Virus record (IMG/VR): IMGVR_UViG_3300024294_000080
Location: 1 to 20,555 of that record
Origin: a virus
Reading direction: 5' to 3' (one strand)
DNA: 20,555 nucleotides
Shown here: one piece after another, positions 9,994-20,555 of the stretch
How the letters are laid out: each line of letters begins with the position of its first letter
Position numbering within the stretch: the stretch's first letter is position 1
The notes under the pieces: generated by a model
What the model saw: only the letters and a program-made list of their open reading frames with translations
What the model was told of the DNA's origin: nothing
The model's database searches: none
Position numbers and translations under genes: made by a program

Positions 9994-10001
9994 TATTTAT
10001 A
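9994..10001 (-). promoter_or_regulatory. Late promoter for gene 21
   Basis: The minus strand reads TATAAATA, 23 bases before the gene 21 ATG. It overlaps the TAA stop (9997-9999) of the upstream 563-residue gene, so the stop codon is part of the promoter box. Confidence 0.85.
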
Positions 10002-11688
10002 ACGCTTCTCGGGCAAATCCTACGATCTCTTTAAACCCTGCTTCGTCTTTCATCATTACCTTTTCCATATCTCTACGGTTTTTAGCATTGAGATTTTTAT
10101 AAAAAGAATTTAAAAGTTTAGCATCTTGGTTAGATACCTTTACATTTTTACCATTCTTTAATCTCAGGTTTCCCATTTTAACAGCTTCGTCTAACATTTC
10201 AGTAAAGCCTTCACCTACAAGTTTTCTCACAGCTCGGTTAATACCCATAGACCTGTTAACAGATTTCTTTTTATGCTTATGCATTAAATCAAATTGTTTA
10301 TACATATCTTTGTCTTTATCAGCCATTACTCCAGCATCTTTGTGGTGTGTAGCAAGATTATCCTGCGTTTCTTTATTGCTGTGAGCTTTTTTAATATAAC
10401 TGCCAAGAGTTTTCTTGTCAAGTTCATTAATTTTTGCTTCCGATTTATTTTTCTTATAATCGTTAATATTATGGCCAGGAGGTACGTCTCCTCTCCAGTG
10501 GCCTACCACAGGAATATCTTTATTAACAGAGTTTAAATGTTTTTCAGCATCTTCTCTAGTTTTAAAATCTTTACCAACTCCGTCATCAGGGTAGTGACCT
10601 TTTTTATGTACTTTATATAATGGGTTGGTAACACCGTCGCGCCCATAACGAGGATAGCTGCTTTGACGAGTTTCACTATTGTTGGTATACACTTTACTAA
10701 TTTTGTGTGTTTTACCATCTTGAAATGCTTCGTTTGTTCTAATAACATCTTGGCCGCGATCGTCAGTTCTATCAGATCTAAGCTTTTTCATAACTGTACG
10801 AGTTTTACCATCTGGTCCTGTTTGAGTAACCATATGTCTCATTGCAGAGGAAGTCGTTTCAATTACGTCAACTTCCTCATTTGGCTTTTTTCGCGCACGC
10901 ATAATTGCGAAGTCGTGTCCGTCAATTTTCCCGTTTTTGTTATGGTCAAGTTTTTTCTGTCCACCCTTTAAAGCTTCGTTCCATTTACCGAATGCTATTT
11001 CTGAAACCTTTTCAGTAACTTCTTCTACTTCTTCATTCCTTTTGTTAAAAGGAAATTTAACATCTTTATCAGGAGATCTATTTAAACGATCAAGCGCAGC
11101 TGCCGCCCGTTTTCGTTGATGGAGGATGTCATTACCATGCTGATCAGCCTTGTCATATGCTTTCTCACCCGCGGCATCTCGTTTACCCCTGAATTTATCT
11201 ATATCACGGTTATTAGCGGCCTTTTGCTTAGCAAGGCTTTTTTCTGCCCTATTAAGTTTATTCTTCATCATCATCTTGCCAATACCTTTAAATGGGCCTT
11301 CTTCTAATCCTTCCTTTGGAATATCGAAAGGAGCTTTAGCTAGAGTAACTTTTTTCTTGCCTTCTTTTGATGCAGCAGTAGCTTTATCAAGTGCAGCCTG
11401 TGTAGCCATCTCTTTTGATTCGTTTGCTCTAAATTGACTGAACTTACGACCTTTACGTAATACAGGCTCTTGATCTGGTTTATCACCATAAGCTTGATCG
11501 TAATTAGCTTCATCGTCTTCTTGGTCAGCAGGACGGGCAGCTTTTGGTTTTCCAATATCACCACTGAATTGACTATCAGGTGCTACAGGATGGGGCGCAA
11601 CCTTTTGGTTATGCTGGTCTTTGAAAGCTTTTTCTTCCGAAGACTTCGGTTGAGCAACTTCGCTAAGTATATTTTTGAAAGTTTTCAT
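9997..11688 (-). CDS. Lys-rich prohead core or internal head protein with EF-hand-like loop, 563 aa
   Basis: It occupies the place of T4 genes 67 and 68 (prohead core proteins) between 20 and 21, but is much larger. The N-terminus (MKTFKNILSEVAQPKSSEEK, then HPVAPDSQFSGD) resembles a leader seen in marine T4-like phage proteins. The body is very basic and low in hydrophobics. Residues 247-260 (LDHNKNGKIDGHDF) match a calcium-binding EF-hand/dockerin loop with ligands D248, N250, N252, D256 and D259. Near the C-terminus, INELDKKTLGSYIKKA (420-435) and MGINRAVRKLVGEG (481-494) resemble modules shared among phage core proteins. Several Leu-x-Glu/Ile-x-Glu sites could be cut by gp21. It is probably packed in the prohead core and processed, with fragments perhaps kept with the DNA; this is inference. 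AGGAG precedes the ATG. Confidence 0.78.
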   Translation of the reverse strand: MKTFKNILSEVAQPKSSEEKAFKDQHNQKVAPHPVAPDSQFSGDIGKPKAARPADQEDDEANYDQAYGDKPDQEPVLRKGRKFSQFRANESKEMATQAALDKATAASKEGKKKVTLAKAPFDIPKEGLEEGPFKGIGKMMMKNKLNRAEKSLAKQKAANNRDIDKFRGKRDAAGEKAYDKADQHGNDILHQRKRAAAALDRLNRSPDKDVKFPFNKRNEEVEEVTEKVSEIAFGKWNEALKGGQKKLDHNKNGKIDGHDFAIMRARKKPNEEVDVIETTSSAMRHMVTQTGPDGKTRTVMKKLRSDRTDDRGQDVIRTNEAFQDGKTHKISKVYTNNSETRQSSYPRYGRDGVTNPLYKVHKKGHYPDDGVGKDFKTREDAEKHLNSVNKDIPVVGHWRGDVPPGHNINDYKKNKSEAKINELDKKTLGSYIKKAHSNKETQDNLATHHKDAGVMADKDKDMYKQFDLMHKHKKKSVNRSMGINRAVRKLVGEGFTEMLDEAVKMGNLRLKNGKNVKVSNQDAKLLNSFYKNLNAKNRRDMEKVMMKDEAGFKEIVGFAREAL

Positions 11689-13842: not shown

Positions 13843-13850
13843 TATTTATT
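13843..13850 (-). promoter_or_regulatory. Probable late promoter for gene 19 (7 of 8 matches)
   Basis: The minus strand reads AATAAATA, one mismatch from TATAAATA, 25 bases before the gene 19 ATG and touching the gene 18 stop codon. The position matches that of the five perfect boxes, which supports function despite the mismatch. It may be weaker. Confidence 0.55.
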
Positions 13851-15790
13851 TAAGTTAACTGACCGACAATTTCGTCAAATTCAATACCGGTTCTAGTTGC
13901 AACGAATGTTAATTCGATTACGTTAATAGAACGTGCTGGTTTAATGAATATGCTTGCGCGGAATTTATTTTGGTCAATTACCTCAGGAGTATTAACGGTT
14001 GAGTCACTGATTACTCGGTAATCAATAATACCACGTCTTCCTTGGATATCACGTAAGAATGGATCTACAATGTTTCTAAACTGTGTTTGAGTGAATTCGT
14101 CGTTCAATTCAAACAAGAAGCTTTGAGCTGCAGTAGCAATTGATTTTTCAACCGCGATAAACAACCTACGAACATTTAATCTATCAAACGCAGATGAAAC
14201 ACCTAATCCTGTTTTATCACCAAATAGTACAATACCTTGTCCTACCTGTGACACAACTGGGTTGATGTCTGAACCATACAATAAATCTCTCATTGCTTTG
14301 CTAGGGTTAAACGCTAACTTAACAACATTTTTGATTATACCTTTTCTAAAGCCAGCTGGTGATTCCCATGCTTCAACTCTAGCAGCCAATCCGGCCATGT
14401 CACCATTTAATGGAGTCCAACGATATTTGTCATTGTACTTATCATATCGGTATTTGTATCCACTGTCAATGAATGAATAAGATGAGTTTTGAATTTTATT
14501 ACGATATGCAATTGCATTGGTAAGTTTTGCATTCATTTTAAGCTCATCAACAACAGCTTCTTTAGATGGTGAAATAAATGCAACACAATCTTTTCTTGTT
14601 TCACATATATTAGAAACAATGTAATTTGCTCTTACTGCAGCATCATCGCCTTTACCTTGAAGTACAAAAGCAATGTCGATTTCATTGGCACTTCTTAAAG
14701 TATCTAATGCTAAACCTAATTGACCTAATGTTGCAGTCGTTTCTGTAACCGGTGATGTTGCACCAGCCATTCTTTCGTATTTAGCAATTGCCGTAGATGC
14801 AGTACCAATTGGTGCTGTGTTAGCAATTTTTACCCAAGAGGAGAAGTTTTCAATCACTGTACCATAATAATTGGCAGTACCTTGTGGTGAAACAGCGCCT
14901 ACGGTTGTTGAAATATTTTCGAATTTTTCTAGTATAAATCCTGCAGTACCAGAAATTTCTCCACCTGCGTCAATAACCGCTACGTGAATATTTCCTGCGT
15001 CTGGCTTTTTGGAGAATGTTCCTCCATGTTGCCATTTCTTTTTCATTGATAGTTTAGCTAAATCAGTTTCAGCTAATGTATATTTGTTAAAGAACTCGAT
15101 ATCGTATGAGTATAGAGCAAGGAATTCAGTATTCGCATCGCCTTCAACGGCCTCAGCAGTCACTTCGGTTTCTGTGAATGAGCTAACTCTCATTTCTTGG
15201 TAACCAATTGATTCGTTACCGATTTCTAATACATCGCCTACGGCTAAATCCAGTAGGTTTTGTGTATTAGCTGTTTCAAATTGAACGTTAGAAGAGTTAA
15301 AGTTAATAACCTGATCTAATGTTACGTCTGAAATTTTATTTGTTGGAATTCCTGCTACCGCAACGAATGGATTTTCGAAACCGGTTGAAGATACCCAAGC
15401 AACTTCTAGTGAGTTACCAAGCTCACCTTTATACTTCGCTTCGAAAGCACCGTAGGTACTATCATCTGAAACGACGTCGTTGTTTGCATCAAGTGTGATG
15501 TCTAATGTTGTACTGTTAGCTTCGGTTGAACCATCGTCTGCACGAACAACATACAGTGCATTTGAATATGATAAGTAATCAGCAGCTGTAAAAAATGTTT
15601 CGTAATTGTCATCATTAGGTGCGCCAAAACGGTCTACGAGTTGGTTTTCTGATGATAGCAATAATGGTTCGTTAGTCGGGCCCCACCTAAATACACCAGC
15701 TATTGCAGCAGGTGGATTTGAGATGGCTGGTACTGCCTGAGAAGCATCAACTTCCCGAACTATAACAGAGGGACTTACGGAAAAAGCCAT
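13850..15790 (-). CDS. 18: Contractile tail sheath protein gp18
   Basis: Surrounds the gp19 tube and contracts during injection. The 646-residue product (T4: 659) starts with SPSVIVREVDASQAVPAISN, contains AIAGVFRWGPTNEP (about 29-42), and its C-terminal third has the conserved sheath core: DGDMAGL-type NGDMAGLAARVEAWESPAGF, RDLLYGSDINPVV, GIVLFGDKTG, and LNVRRLFIAVEKSI followed by FEFND-type FELNDEFTQ. The middle domains (about 90-300) are variable and surface-exposed in the family. AAGGAG precedes the ATG. A late promoter is at 15856-15863, leaving a leader of about 60 bases that contains an A-run. Confidence 0.96.
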   Translation of the reverse strand: MAFSVSPSVIVREVDASQAVPAISNPPAAIAGVFRWGPTNEPLLLSSENQLVDRFGAPNDDNYETFFTAADYLSYSNALYVVRADDGSTEANSTTLDITLDANNDVVSDDSTYGAFEAKYKGELGNSLEVAWVSSTGFENPFVAVAGIPTNKISDVTLDQVINFNSSNVQFETANTQNLLDLAVGDVLEIGNESIGYQEMRVSSFTETEVTAEAVEGDANTEFLALYSYDIEFFNKYTLAETDLAKLSMKKKWQHGGTFSKKPDAGNIHVAVIDAGGEISGTAGFILEKFENISTTVGAVSPQGTANYYGTVIENFSSWVKIANTAPIGTASTAIAKYERMAGATSPVTETTATLGQLGLALDTLRSANEIDIAFVLQGKGDDAAVRANYIVSNICETRKDCVAFISPSKEAVVDELKMNAKLTNAIAYRNKIQNSSYSFIDSGYKYRYDKYNDKYRWTPLNGDMAGLAARVEAWESPAGFRKGIIKNVVKLAFNPSKAMRDLLYGSDINPVVSQVGQGIVLFGDKTGLGVSSAFDRLNVRRLFIAVEKSIATAAQSFLFELNDEFTQTQFRNIVDPFLRDIQGRRGIIDYRVISDSTVNTPEVIDQNKFRASIFIKPARSINVIELTFVATRTGIEFDEIVGQLT

Positions 15791-15883: not shown

Positions 15884-17473
15884 TTACAGCACTAAGCCGT
15901 CATCTTCATAATAAAAATCTTCGCCAGTATCAACAAAGCCAAAAGGCAATAATTCTTCCTCAATTTGTTCTTCTGTCTTTTCTCGTAACTTAACAAGTGT
16001 ATTTATGTCAGTCATATCTTTAAAATACGCTTGTTCAACCATCCATGCAAACAGAACAAGGTTCATAACCAAATCGTCGTGAAATCCTGACTCTGCTTCG
16101 TATGAGTTTGCTTTTTTAGAAAAACGGCTAATTTCTTGTATAGTATCATAATCTTGTATAATAAGTTGGTTTTGCTCAATTAGCATTTTAAGCATGCTAC
16201 ATCCAACTGCCTTAACGTTTTTAGTTGTTCTTATTCCATTATCTACTTTTTTACCAAAACCGCCAGTAAGTATTTTACCAGCTCTTCCATTGTTTGTGGT
16301 GTATAATATATTTTCATAACCATAATCCATTAAGAGAACATCAGCAACCTGTTCTCCAATATCGTTAACCTCTATTAAAACAGCAGCGGTATTATATACT
16401 TGTCCTATTCTAAAAACAACTGATGCAAAATCAATTGGTCCTACCATGTTATCTCTAAACATTGCCACTTGTTTATATGGCATCTCTGTAATATCAATTA
16501 CTGAAAAACATGAATAGTCTAAACCTTTACCACGAGCAACATCGACTGTCATAGAATACTGACGATCTTTTATTGGCTTTTCGTATTGTAAAAAACCATC
16601 TTGTTGTCCTATTGGTACTGAATGTAATAACTCTTTTAGTTTCCAACCTGCAATAAGAGTACCAGAACTACCTAGGAACTGACAACAATATTCTTGGTTG
16701 AATTTTTCTTCGTCGTGGTCTAATGCTTCGATTGTTTCCTTGCGCCATTTTTCATCGCGACCCGGAACATCGTGCCACATAACTTCTTCATATTCATAAC
16801 CATTTGTACCTTCTCTTGCGCCAGTACATGTTTTCCAAAAATGGTTTAATCCATTTGGAGTAGAAGTCATTAAAAGTTTTGTTGACTCGCCAGACGAGAT
16901 AGTAGGATAAACAGATGCGAAAAATTCGTCATATCCTTCAATGAATGCAACCTCATCAAGGTATAGAAAATTAACAGACTTACCACGAATAGCACTCGAC
17001 GACGTAGTACCAGCCAAAACTTGACACCCATTTTCAAGTGCAATGTTTCCTTTGTTCCATTCTTCAACCCCTTGTTGCAGCCATTTAGGTAATGATTCAA
17101 ATGCAAGTTTGACTCGAGCCATTACTTCTCGGGCAGCATCACCTTTATTAGCTAGGATAGCAACTGTTTTAAATTCATTAAATAAAACGTAATGTAAAAT
17201 AATAGCCATTGCAGTGGTTGTTTTACCAGACTGCCGAGCCGTCAAAACAGCCAAACGTCTATTATCAGTAATTTTTCGAGTAATATTTTCTTGGTAATCG
17301 TACATTTCAAATGGAACTAATCCCTTATCAACATGTACAATTTTAATATAATTCTTGGCAAAATATATTGGATCTTGCGCACATTTCATATACTCTTTTA
17401 ATAGGTCAGGCGACCATTCTATTTCTTCACCAATCTTTTTAAGATGTTGGTTTCCTAAATAACCGTCACCCAT
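15884..17473 (-). CDS. 17: Terminase large subunit gp17 (packaging ATPase/nuclease)
   Basis: Motor that cuts concatemeric DNA and pumps it into the prohead. The 529-residue product (T4: 610) has an N-terminal ATPase with Walker A TARQSGKTT (78-86), Walker B FLYLDEVAF (169-177, catalytic Glu174) and coupling motif MTSTPNG (202-208). The C-terminal RNase-H-like nuclease has Asp311 in VDVARG, Glu368 in LIEVND and Asp466/467 in GFHDD. All key residues are present. The start overlaps the gene 16 stop by eight bases (ATGGGTGA), so the two terminase subunits are translationally coupled. T4's longer N-terminal extension is reduced here. Confidence 0.96.
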   Translation of the reverse strand: MGDGYLGNQHLKKIGEEIEWSPDLLKEYMKCAQDPIYFAKNYIKIVHVDKGLVPFEMYDYQENITRKITDNRRLAVLTARQSGKTTTAMAIILHYVLFNEFKTVAILANKGDAAREVMARVKLAFESLPKWLQQGVEEWNKGNIALENGCQVLAGTTSSSAIRGKSVNFLYLDEVAFIEGYDEFFASVYPTISSGESTKLLMTSTPNGLNHFWKTCTGAREGTNGYEYEEVMWHDVPGRDEKWRKETIEALDHDEEKFNQEYCCQFLGSSGTLIAGWKLKELLHSVPIGQQDGFLQYEKPIKDRQYSMTVDVARGKGLDYSCFSVIDITEMPYKQVAMFRDNMVGPIDFASVVFRIGQVYNTAAVLIEVNDIGEQVADVLLMDYGYENILYTTNNGRAGKILTGGFGKKVDNGIRTTKNVKAVGCSMLKMLIEQNQLIIQDYDTIQEISRFSKKANSYEAESGFHDDLVMNLVLFAWMVEQAYFKDMTDINTLVKLREKTEEQIEEELLPFGFVDTGEDFYYEDDGLVL

Positions 17474-17912
17474 TTTCAGTATCTTTCAACATTTTTAATA
17501 AATCCGCGGTGGATACAATCAAGTTATTATTTACTGTGTTGGTTTGCGCAGCCTCTTTAGGTGCATTTATTTCTTCTTTTGCAAATTTCTTTTTAGTTGA
17601 AACATCAGCAAAATCTTTATTGGCGTCTAACATCGTTTTCATCAATGTGGATACAACCTCGAATGCTCTTGGTTGTTCTGACTGTTTTGCAATCTCAAGC
17701 ATTTCTCTTACTGCTTCATTTCCGATTTCAATAACACCTTCAATGTTTTCACGAACTTTTGCAAGATCCTTTAGATTCTCGTCATCTACCTCGTCGGTTA
17801 CTATAGCTGGAAGTATTTCTTCAACAACTTCAACTGGCGTGGCAGCTAGCTCTTCTTCTCTAATTTCTGAAAGTGGTCTCAATCCGAGATTTTCAGCTAT
17901 TTTATCATTCAT
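17466..17912 (-). CDS. 16: Terminase small subunit gp16
   Basis: DNA-recognition and regulatory partner of gp17. The 148-residue product (T4: 164) begins MNDKIAENLGLRPLSEI, has an acidic linker (about 20-45), a central coiled-coil region and the conserved KQSEQPRAFEVVSTLMKTML segment (about 77-96), then a Lys-rich and disordered C-terminal part. The ATG at 17912 is chosen, one base after the gene 15 stop (TAATATG). A GTG nine bases further upstream would add three residues but overlaps gene 15. Confidence 0.93.
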   Translation of the reverse strand: MNDKIAENLGLRPLSEIREEELAATPVEVVEEILPAIVTDEVDDENLKDLAKVRENIEGVIEIGNEAVREMLEIAKQSEQPRAFEVVSTLMKTMLDANKDFADVSTKKKFAKEEINAPKEAAQTNTVNNNLIVSTADLLKMLKDTENG

Positions 17913-17913
17913 A

Positions 17914-20025
17914 TTATTCACTCACTATGGTTTTAATAATACCCCAGTTGTCATCAAACTCAATGTCTTGGTATGGAATTGATCCAAAGTCTGGAGACGA
18001 TATAGTTACTGCAGGTGGATTTCTATATCCTAAGCCTGCGTCGGTTATTGTTATTGATTGAATATCCCCGTTATTACCAACATTTGCTATGGCAGTTGCC
18101 TGAGTCGACGTTGGTGCAGAAACATTGATTGCAGGAGCGTTCGCGTAGAACTTCCCTGAGCTATTTATTGTAATTGAGTCTATGACTCCATTTACTAATG
18201 TTGGTGTTAATGAAGCGGCGAATGTTGACGGCGTATCGTCAGGTGCATCAATCGTAACAGCTGGTGCTGTAGCATACCCAGATCCACCAGAAGTAACATC
18301 AATAGAAATTACTTCGCCGTCTGTTGCAGTGATTGTGGCTACAGGAAGATCCTTATCAAAGTTCTTAGTAAATAAATCGCCAGTTCTTGCAGTCGTTGGG
18401 ATCGTATATGGATCACCACTAGATGCAGTAGGCATATCACCGGTTGTTTCCCAAGTTACGTTATCTAAGTATCCAAGGAAGCTTCTGTTAGCTCCATCAA
18501 ATACTGATTCATTACCTTGAGCATCACCAGCTCGATATGTATGTCCTGGGAATGCAACGTTACCTGCACCACGTGTTTCTTGTGTGCCATATAAACCATT
18601 AACGTTAATTCGAATAAGATTTGTATAATGTTCTACTTCTACGTGGTTCCATTGGTTGAGGACCAAATCAGTATCAGAAGTAACAACTGGCGCACCACCA
18701 TATTGGAACCTAACGTTACCTGTATCAGCGGTAAAGAATATTTTTGTAAATGGCGCAAAGAGTACTGACATTGGATTATTACCACCTGGGAAAGAGGTTG
18801 GGTAAATCCAAAACGATACTTTATATCCAGTATTGGAATTAAAATAACCAGAGAATGAATGTAAAGTCGTAACATCGTTTTCACTACTATGAGCTAATGC
18901 ATCATCACCAAACTTAAACTCTGCAGCCACGTTTGGTGGAGGTGCTATTGAAAACGTTGGATTAGTATAAAAATTGCCTGGATTTGATATAGATACGTTA
19001 GCAACAGAGTCGCCACTTAATGTAGCAGTCGCGGTAGCCGTTGTGATAGGGCTATCTGGGAGCCCTACAGACACCGTTGGTAGATTACTGAAGTATCCTC
19101 CACCATCATTGATCGTTATATCAGATACCGCCCCGTTTGTTATCGTAGATGTTATATCTGCGTTTGCTACATCAGGTGCTCCGATAGTAACAACCGTATT
19201 TGCGTTATAGTTTTCACCATCATTAGTTAACGAAATGCTACTTACTGATCCTGTGGTTAAAGCCGATACAGCAGTTGCCGTTTCACCTACATCAGTTATT
19301 GGAGTATTTGCTGATGATAACCCAGGACGAATATCAATACCTTCTAGGAACGGCGAATTAGTATCAGTACCATTGAACATATCAACGTCAACGAATTTAA
19401 TAATCTTTTTCGTTTTCTCTGGCCCAAAGTAATAACCTCTAAGTGTAAAGGTTAGTGTATGTAAAACCATTTGTCTTTCATCAAATGCACCTTCATAAAG
19501 ATCCTCGATTGTTACGCTGTTTAAAACAATAGGTATATCAATAGGATCCAAATCTGGTATCATCTTGGCACCAACAGTCCAGTCTGGTGTAAAGAATGGT
19601 ATAATTTGTTCTAAGATTTTAGTAGCATCTTCTGAATACTTTGTCATAATGTATAAAGAAAAATCTAAATTATATGGTACAGGGTTATATACGTAAGGTC
19701 GAGCGTCATCTGTTTCTGATTTACCACGTTTAATCATTTTACCTGTTGTAGTTAATTTGCGTTGTGGATCATATGAAATGTTGTTTATTTCAAAAGACAT
19801 TCTTGGTAACGTCATAGCAGGACGACGACTGTTAATCAAATCAGGATCTGCAGTTACTCTTGCTAATATTTTTTGATATGGTGCATAGGCTAATGGCACA
19901 ATCATTTCTTTTTTAAGAACACCAGCGTTATCATGTCTTTGGATCTTTAACTGATTAAACAGTGTTCCAAATAACGCTACGTATTTTCTTGTAGTTGAAT
20001 TATAAAAATAATTTGCGATTGCCAT
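17914..20025 (-). CDS. 15: Tail sheath stabiliser/terminator gp15 with repeat-LamG-repeat extension, 703 aa
   Basis: Residues 1 to about 235 match gp15 of T4 (272 aa), which caps the tail tube and sheath and joins the head: NYFYNSTTRKYVALFGTLF, then PRMSFEINNISYDP, VPYNLDFSLYIMTKY, EQIIPFFTPDW and VLHTLTFTLRGYYFGP. The remaining ~470 residues are extra. Three repeats of the form 'G-x-V-x-x-I-x-I-x-x-x-G-x-x-Y-x-x-x-P-x-V-x-I' lie at about 259-285, 298-324 and 338-363. A LamG/concanavalin-like domain follows at about 365-530 (GYKVSFWIYPTSF, NQWNHVEVEHY, FLGYLDNVTW). Three more repeats are at about 570-596, 613-638 and 653-679. The tail DIEFDDNWG is probably the native gp15 C-terminus. The extension is probably an exposed neck decoration with carbohydrate-binding potential (inference). 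AGGAT precedes the ATG. Confidence 0.9.
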   Translation of the reverse strand: MAIANYFYNSTTRKYVALFGTLFNQLKIQRHDNAGVLKKEMIVPLAYAPYQKILARVTADPDLINSRRPAMTLPRMSFEINNISYDPQRKLTTTGKMIKRGKSETDDARPYVYNPVPYNLDFSLYIMTKYSEDATKILEQIIPFFTPDWTVGAKMIPDLDPIDIPIVLNSVTIEDLYEGAFDERQMVLHTLTFTLRGYYFGPEKTKKIIKFVDVDMFNGTDTNSPFLEGIDIRPGLSSANTPITDVGETATAVSALTTGSVSSISLTNDGENYNANTVVTIGAPDVANADITSTITNGAVSDITINDGGGYFSNLPTVSVGLPDSPITTATATATLSGDSVANVSISNPGNFYTNPTFSIAPPPNVAAEFKFGDDALAHSSENDVTTLHSFSGYFNSNTGYKVSFWIYPTSFPGGNNPMSVLFAPFTKIFFTADTGNVRFQYGGAPVVTSDTDLVLNQWNHVEVEHYTNLIRINVNGLYGTQETRGAGNVAFPGHTYRAGDAQGNESVFDGANRSFLGYLDNVTWETTGDMPTASSGDPYTIPTTARTGDLFTKNFDKDLPVATITATDGEVISIDVTSGGSGYATAPAVTIDAPDDTPSTFAASLTPTLVNGVIDSITINSSGKFYANAPAINVSAPTSTQATAIANVGNNGDIQSITITDAGLGYRNPPAVTISSPDFGSIPYQDIEFDDNWGIIKTIVSE

Positions 20026-20029
20026 ATTG

Positions 20030-20555
20030 TTAATCCTGTATAGAAATGTTTTCGCTGAATGGGTCCATTTCAGAGAAGTCTAATATATCATCTGCTTGAT
20101 CCTCAAAATCAAAGTTATTAGCAAGTGGGTCAACACCTTGTAATGATGTAAGAGATGTGACGGTATCTTTTGATGTATCAATGTCTGCAAAGTAATTATC
20201 AATTTCATAATAGCCAGTATCGAATGTTTCACCAGAGTATTCAGCCAATTCGCATCTCATATCATATACTTGTAATGCACCTGTTTGATAGAATACACTT
20301 TCATGTTCAACGTGTTGGATCTTATACATTTTTTGATTGAGTGGCATCCAAATCATTTCGCCTTCAAGTGGACGTAATCGCGTATCTTGTTCACGTGTAA
20401 CGTATTGTTCAAAGGTACGTATAGCAACCGTGAATGTAATTGAGTCACGAATTTGTAAACCAAACTTAGATAAGAAGTCTCCTTCACCTTCAAATCCATC
20501 AACGTTTTTAATGTATACTTCAAAATCATAGTACTTATCAAACGTCGGTAAATCG
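20030..20555 (-). CDS. 14: Neck protein gp14, 5'-truncated by the window edge
   Basis: The frame is open to the end of the window, so the N-terminus lies beyond 20555. About 174 C-terminal residues are visible. They include FLSKFGLQIRDSITFTVAIR, RPLEGEMIWMPL, KIQHVEHESVFYQTGALQVY and ELAEYSGETFDTGYYEID, a pattern typical of gp14, the head-completion/neck protein that binds gp13 and receives the tail. T4 gp14 is 256 residues. The C-terminus is acidic and ends four bases before the gene 15 ATG, fitting the T4 order 14-15-16. Confidence 0.9.
   Translation of the reverse strand, partial: DLPTFDKYYDFEVYIKNVDGFEGEGDFLSKFGLQIRDSITFTVAIRTFEQYVTREQDTRLRPLEGEMIWMPLNQKMYKIQHVEHESVFYQTGALQVYDMRCELAEYSGETFDTGYYEIDNYFADIDTSKDTVTSLTSLQGVDPLANNFDFEDQADDILDFSEMDPFSENISIQD

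Follow-up and report, generated by a model that had tools for sequence, protein, structure and literature searches.

A repeat-LamG-repeat module inserted in the gp15 tail terminator of a marine T4-like virus and its counterparts on the neighbouring neck protein gp14

Neck proteins are usually seen as conserved plumbing that keeps the genome in and lets it out. Why, then, does a T4-type tail terminator contain a lectin-like domain flanked by beta repeats, and where on the virion would such a module be displayed? The question is raised by a window of 20.6 kb (the whole 20,555-nucleotide stretch analysed here), a metagenomic IMG/VR virus record without an isolate. Its gp15 gene for the tail terminator, or tail sheath stabiliser (P0001; 17914..20025, minus strand; PF16724 and phrog_227), runs from 20025 down to 17914 and has 703 codons according to the open reading frame list and translation. 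The initial annotation had given both the length of 703 residues and that of 272 in T4 correctly while omitting the strand, and its placement of gp15 at the head-tail junction was supported. Pfam and PHROGs searches gave the T4-type order gp14-gp15-gp16-gp17 with a T4-like sheath, tube and portal close by. The neck protein gene gp14 (20030..20554, minus; PF11649, E = 4e-20) has its 5' end outside the window, and the small terminase gene gp16 (17466..17921, minus; phrog_445, E = 3e-25) directly follows gp15. The tail sheath gene gp18 (13850..15790, minus; phrog_23, E = 9e-110) is present farther along, as are gp19, gp20 and gp23. With gp15 between gp14 and gp16/gp17, and with these four genes in the same window, the locus is therefore a T4-type head-tail cluster. 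Elsewhere in the window, between the portal (gp20) and the prohead protease region, a 563-aa protein without a PHROG match (9997-11688, minus) contains an EF-hand/dockerin-like stretch (DHNKNGKIDGHDF), to which Pfam Dockerin_1 matched with only E = 0.057.

The first ~235 residues had been described as a normal gp15, and the Pfam, PHROGs, PDB sequence and fold searches all agreed on this for residues 1-228 (19342..20025, minus). PF16724 (T4-gp15_tss) matched residues 6-225 with E = 9.7e-68 and phrog_227 matched residues 4-238 with E = 7e-74, while T4 gp15 was found by the PDB sequence search (E = 4e-20) and by Foldseek with the gp15 model (9mkb, 3.9e-9; 4huh, 4e-8). The confidence of the monomer model was low in the core and in the C-terminal tail, and its pLDDT was mostly above 85 from residue 251.

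The short acidic tail had been counted as part of the addition, a view that the alignments overturned. Residues 683-703 (17917..17979, minus), the region of the motif DDNWGII (SIPYQDIEFDDNWGIIKTIVSE), align with T4 residues 241-251 (DIDPEDWDGTV) and with the C-termini of gp15s that lack the cassette, including YSLIDFADDWDYIV in L091, WTNIDIDDDWGFIT in L089 and PYLQIDPDDDWAYIV in phage phiM19. The tail is thus gp15's own conserved C-terminal strand, displaced by the insert, and by this alignment the cassette is an internal insertion ahead of the native strand rather than a C-terminal extension, held between the presumably hexameric core and the strand. In phages XM1 and 812, the C-terminus of the terminator joins the sheath protein as an additional strand (PMC10457771, PMC12886913), and by analogy the C-terminal motif of the window gp15 would pair with gp18; the region of this strand is absent from the T4 gp15 crystal structure. 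The distance from the core to the C-terminal DD-W/F-G motif was 472-486 residues (median 478) in 68 window-type gp15s. Outside the window type it was 30-50 as a rule, with medians of 50 in the phiM19 group and 31 in 74 relatives of pelagiphage Mosig, and intermediate inserts occurred in the S-SSM7 group (median 119) and in a few singletons. Because the distances vary with such intermediates, the segment ahead of the strand seems, from sequence comparison, to be a site where gp15 tolerates insertions. Other unrelated or smaller inserts or extensions were seen around the C-terminal strand in L103, L104, L106, L278 and the gp15 of L003; L106 has two copies of the window-type beta repeat near the strand, without LamG, and for the L103 extension a BspA-like reading was dropped as Pfam did not confirm it.

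Between core and strand, residues 249-682 form a module of about 434 residues. The proposed layout of three beta repeats, a LamG-like domain and three more repeats was borne out by HMM, Pfam and family alignment, with repeats 1-3 at residues 249-365 (18931..19281, minus), LamG at residues 366-545 (18391..18930, minus) and repeats 4-6 at residues 561-682 (17980..18345, minus; phrog_701, E = 9e-25, best stretch 561-678). An HMM built exclusively on repeats in gp14 of the cyanophages S-SSM7 and Sf-FS3 detected six copies in the window gp15, at residues 257-285, 296-323, 340-363, 570-596, 611-641 and 652-681. Four of these scored 10-33 bits, and the other two, at 6.2 and 2.5 bits, lay near or inside the range of shuffled sequences (best of 500 shuffles, 5.9) and were accepted from the family alignment. 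A DNA repeat search inside the gp15 gene yielded only short, weak families, none matching the six-repeat layout, so that the repeats exist at the protein level only.

For the LamG domain, PF13385 scored 32.2 bits in the six-frame search of the window against a cut-off of 27.6, 27.5 bits on the whole 703-aa protein and 31.9 bits on the isolated domain, and it was matched by all of the 20 aligned relatives (best 7e-17). Modelled with AlphaFold2 (pLDDT 88, pTM 0.88), the domain has the LamG jelly-roll fold and matched pentraxin and laminin-G structures with E-values of 6.5e-7 to 1e-5, including the LG domains of neurexin, agrin and perlecan. A single-sequence PDB search with the window gp15 returned gp15 matches only and missed LamG, which the fold search did recover.

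Since the window is a metagenomic record without an isolate, the extension might be an assembly artefact or a chance fusion in one contig, as the initial annotation had itself allowed. The relatives rule out an artefact, and we regard this explanation as having practically no chance of being right: the same architecture was found in more than 60 complete IMG/VR contigs (695-707 aa, 44-100% identity), four contigs in two metagenome-assembled genomes (MAGs) encode the same protein, and the insert is in-frame and under purifying selection. Among the 80 loci kept from the IMG/VR scan, 63 encoded the window-type gp15 in full (695-707 aa), each with LamG, a uniformity that is partly built in, the set having been retrieved with a cassette-bearing query. 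As for the host, three of the MAG contigs belong to a Rhodobacteraceae bin and one to a Bacteroidetes bin, bins being often contaminated, and the nearest isolates by portal were Sinorhizobium phages (53%).

In the core tree, the 20 cassette-bearing rows formed one clade (96/92), and the cassette-less L091, L093, L094, L102 and L103 formed its sister clade (98/92 for both together). The gp15s of the sister clade are 263-277 aa long with the insertion site empty, as against 695-707 aa with the cassette. Mosig gp15, which also bears LamG, was nested among cassette-less relatives, apart from the window clade; on this tree, the cassette has a single origin in the window clade and Mosig is a separate, independent gain. 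The suggestion that the symmetric layout marks an inserted cassette is half right. Insertion is supported by the cassette-less sister clade and by a LamG common to gp14 and gp15, but the 3 + 3 symmetry was rejected as evidence because it is not general: S-SSM7 gp14 carries two repeats ahead of LamG and three or four behind it, Mosig gp15 has one on each side, and the number in L272 is different too.

The LamG part of the window gp15 matched gp14 of phages S-SSM7, S-SSM6a and Sf-FS3 with E-values down to 7e-15 (tblastn). In these three phages gp14 is about 762 aa long and consists of repeats, LamG and repeats followed by the conserved gp14 C-terminus (DEILDFTERNPFGEF). LamG was found in such a ~760-aa gp14 in 71 of the 72 complete S-SSM7-type loci, and the remaining gp14, of ~610 aa, also has it, while gp15 in this group is 350-369 aa long and without LamG (67 complete genes). 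The window type is the reverse, with LamG in 63 complete gp15s and a short gp14 of 220-239 aa without LamG (64 complete genes), and the two placements were mutually exclusive across the fetched window-type and S-SSM7-type loci. The LamG domains of the window and of S-SSM7 gp14 are about 32% identical, and at this divergence the link between the two families is older than the exchange seen in Mosig. The LamG of Mosig gp15 (532 aa), which is below the reach of Pfam, shares 90% DNA identity over ~570 bp and 87% protein identity with the gp14 LamG of two other loci (L002 10912-11478 for Mosig gp15; L272 4267-4834 and L271 4135-4702 for gp14). The gp14 and gp15 cores of Mosig and these loci share only 42-49% protein identity, and outside LamG the compared loci are similar in DNA over just a single further short stretch. 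Among the relatives of Mosig, with cores up to 90% identical, none of the 77 complete gp15s has LamG. So similar a LamG between such divergent cores, and missing from the relatives of Mosig, shows directly that LamG can move between a gp14 and a gp15 of different phages, in a recent exchange that may have gone in either direction.

In the T4 virion, gp14 touches gp15 residues 203-245 with its C-terminal region (178-256; PMC12270204, preprint). The insertion points adjoin these contact segments, with that in gp15 just before T4 residue 241 and that in gp14 just before the C-terminal motif. By analogy with the T4 contact, insertion in either protein would put the module at nearly the same physical spot, which would explain why either gene can carry it. 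We consider the anatomy, the insertion and the mobility of the module highly probable, and the gp14-gp15 joint would on this view be a common display site for it. Two further genes appeared in these searches. A 2409-aa gene of metaG-MbCM1 annotated as 'gp14 neck protein' (JN371769, L292 957-8186) was among the hits from the viral fold library; it was rejected as gp14 because it does not lie between gp13 and gp15, and it is probably misnamed through the common repeats, a 308-aa gene between gp13 and gp15 being the likelier gp14. Another T4-like contig has a further LamG-bearing ORF that is neither gp14 nor gp15 (L282 2023-4606).

What the module does at this site can be approached through its evolution. 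The dN/dS was ~0-0.2 in the core, the repeats and LamG, with LamG the lowest in several pairs, indicating that the module, LamG included, is used. LamG is also the most divergent region across the family, with a mean pairwise identity of 43% against 70% for the core, a pattern that would suit slow adaptation of a surface part. In one pair, L010 and L011, dS was 0.47 in repeats 1-3, about threefold that of the rest of the gene (0.14-0.17), which suggests recombination inside the cassette.

If gp15 forms a hexameric ring at the top of the tail, just below the head, as in T4, six modules would project where gp14, gp15 and the sheath meet, with one end of each anchored to the ring and the other to the first sheath disc. 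The LamG domains may then serve as auxiliary adhesion sites for glycans of the host or neighbouring surfaces, or for fibres of the phage itself, and the repeats would be rigid spacers. Adhesion is the use that we prefer as the most likely one, though tentatively, and the finding that these repeats and LamG are also present on baseplate and tail-fibre proteins of cyanophages (PHROGs, tblastn and fold search) counts in its favour. Against it, LamG domains also have purely structural roles, and the strength of purifying selection on LamG is unlike what a rapidly changing receptor-binding tip would show. In Anabaena phage A-1(L), moreover, the neck fibre bears a carbohydrate-binding module that did not bind host cells (PMC10966104).

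The low dN/dS would also suit a structural clamp, in which the module reinforces the gp14-gp15-sheath joint and LamG is merely a stable beta-sandwich building block. Such a role is in keeping with the position of the insert directly ahead of the strand expected to pair with the sheath and with that of the gp14 insert before the C-terminal motif, both at the joint, and in Staphylococcus phage 812 separate decoration proteins have such a role. We nevertheless consider a clamp, the main rival, less likely than adhesion: the closest cassette-less relatives, with the same core, do without the module, LamG is the least conserved region of the family, and its recent exchange between distantly related necks fits a self-contained display domain better.

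The initial annotation had also set the extension where T4 instead has fibritin, and the modules might then replace the T4 whiskers and hold or guide the long tail fibres. The location near the T4 collar would suit such docking, and Fibritin_C (PF07921; T4 control E = 2e-34) was not found in the Pfam scan of the window gp15, in the complete genomes of Mosig, S-SSM7, Sf-FS3 and phiM19 or in long window-type contigs, which are fragments. However, phiM19 has no extension and also lacks Fibritin_C, so that whisker loss and cassette gain are not tied together and the proposed substitution is not supported. The whisker anchor in T4 is, in addition, domain III of gp13 and not gp15 (PMC12270204), and fibre docking appears quite improbable.

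Returning to adhesion, a broader and more doubtful proposal is that marine T4-like phages have, besides baseplate and fibres, a third adhesion station at the gp14-gp15 joint, where a mobile repeat-LamG module moves between both neck genes and forms a lectin-like ring at the head-tail junction. A component of the DNA gate and sheath lock would then also be in contact with the surroundings of the virion. A recent LamG exchange is visible in the DNA, and the two adjacent neck genes appear to carry a lectin-like display module interchangeably at one physical spot. This points to a site on T4-type virions where extra domains are tolerated, and it suggests that a single polypeptide both locks the sheath and serves surface display. 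No description of the module on the gp14/gp15 neck joint was found in the open literature searched, which is not proof of absence, and the cultured carriers Mosig, S-SSM7, S-SSM6a and Sf-FS3 make its structure and function testable.

Compared with known systems, the window gp15 shares with T4 gp15 (4huh, 3j2m, 9mkb) the core sequence, fold, gene order and C-terminal strand motif, but T4 has no insert between core and strand. The gp14 (head closure Hc2) of S-SSM7, S-SSM6a and Sf-FS3 carries a homologous module before its conserved C-terminal motif at the same joint, though on gp14 instead of gp15, with two repeats before LamG and more after it and with only the distant LamG similarity given above. 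Mosig (EXVC030M) carries repeat-LamG-repeat on gp15 as in the window, but added after the C-terminal strand instead of before it and with a LamG close to the gp14 type of L271 and L272, not to that of the window. Phage 812 has extra beta-rich material outside its stopper and terminator, formed by the separate neck decoration proteins gp164/gp56 rather than by an insertion, and the accessible portion of that report mentions no LamG (PMC12886913). Finally, the neck fibres of Anabaena phage A-1(L), which end in the carbohydrate-binding module (PMC10966104), and the fibritin whiskers of T4 are extra neck structures as in the window; those are separate trimeric fibres on the ring above, whereas the window phage would carry its display domain inside the terminator itself.
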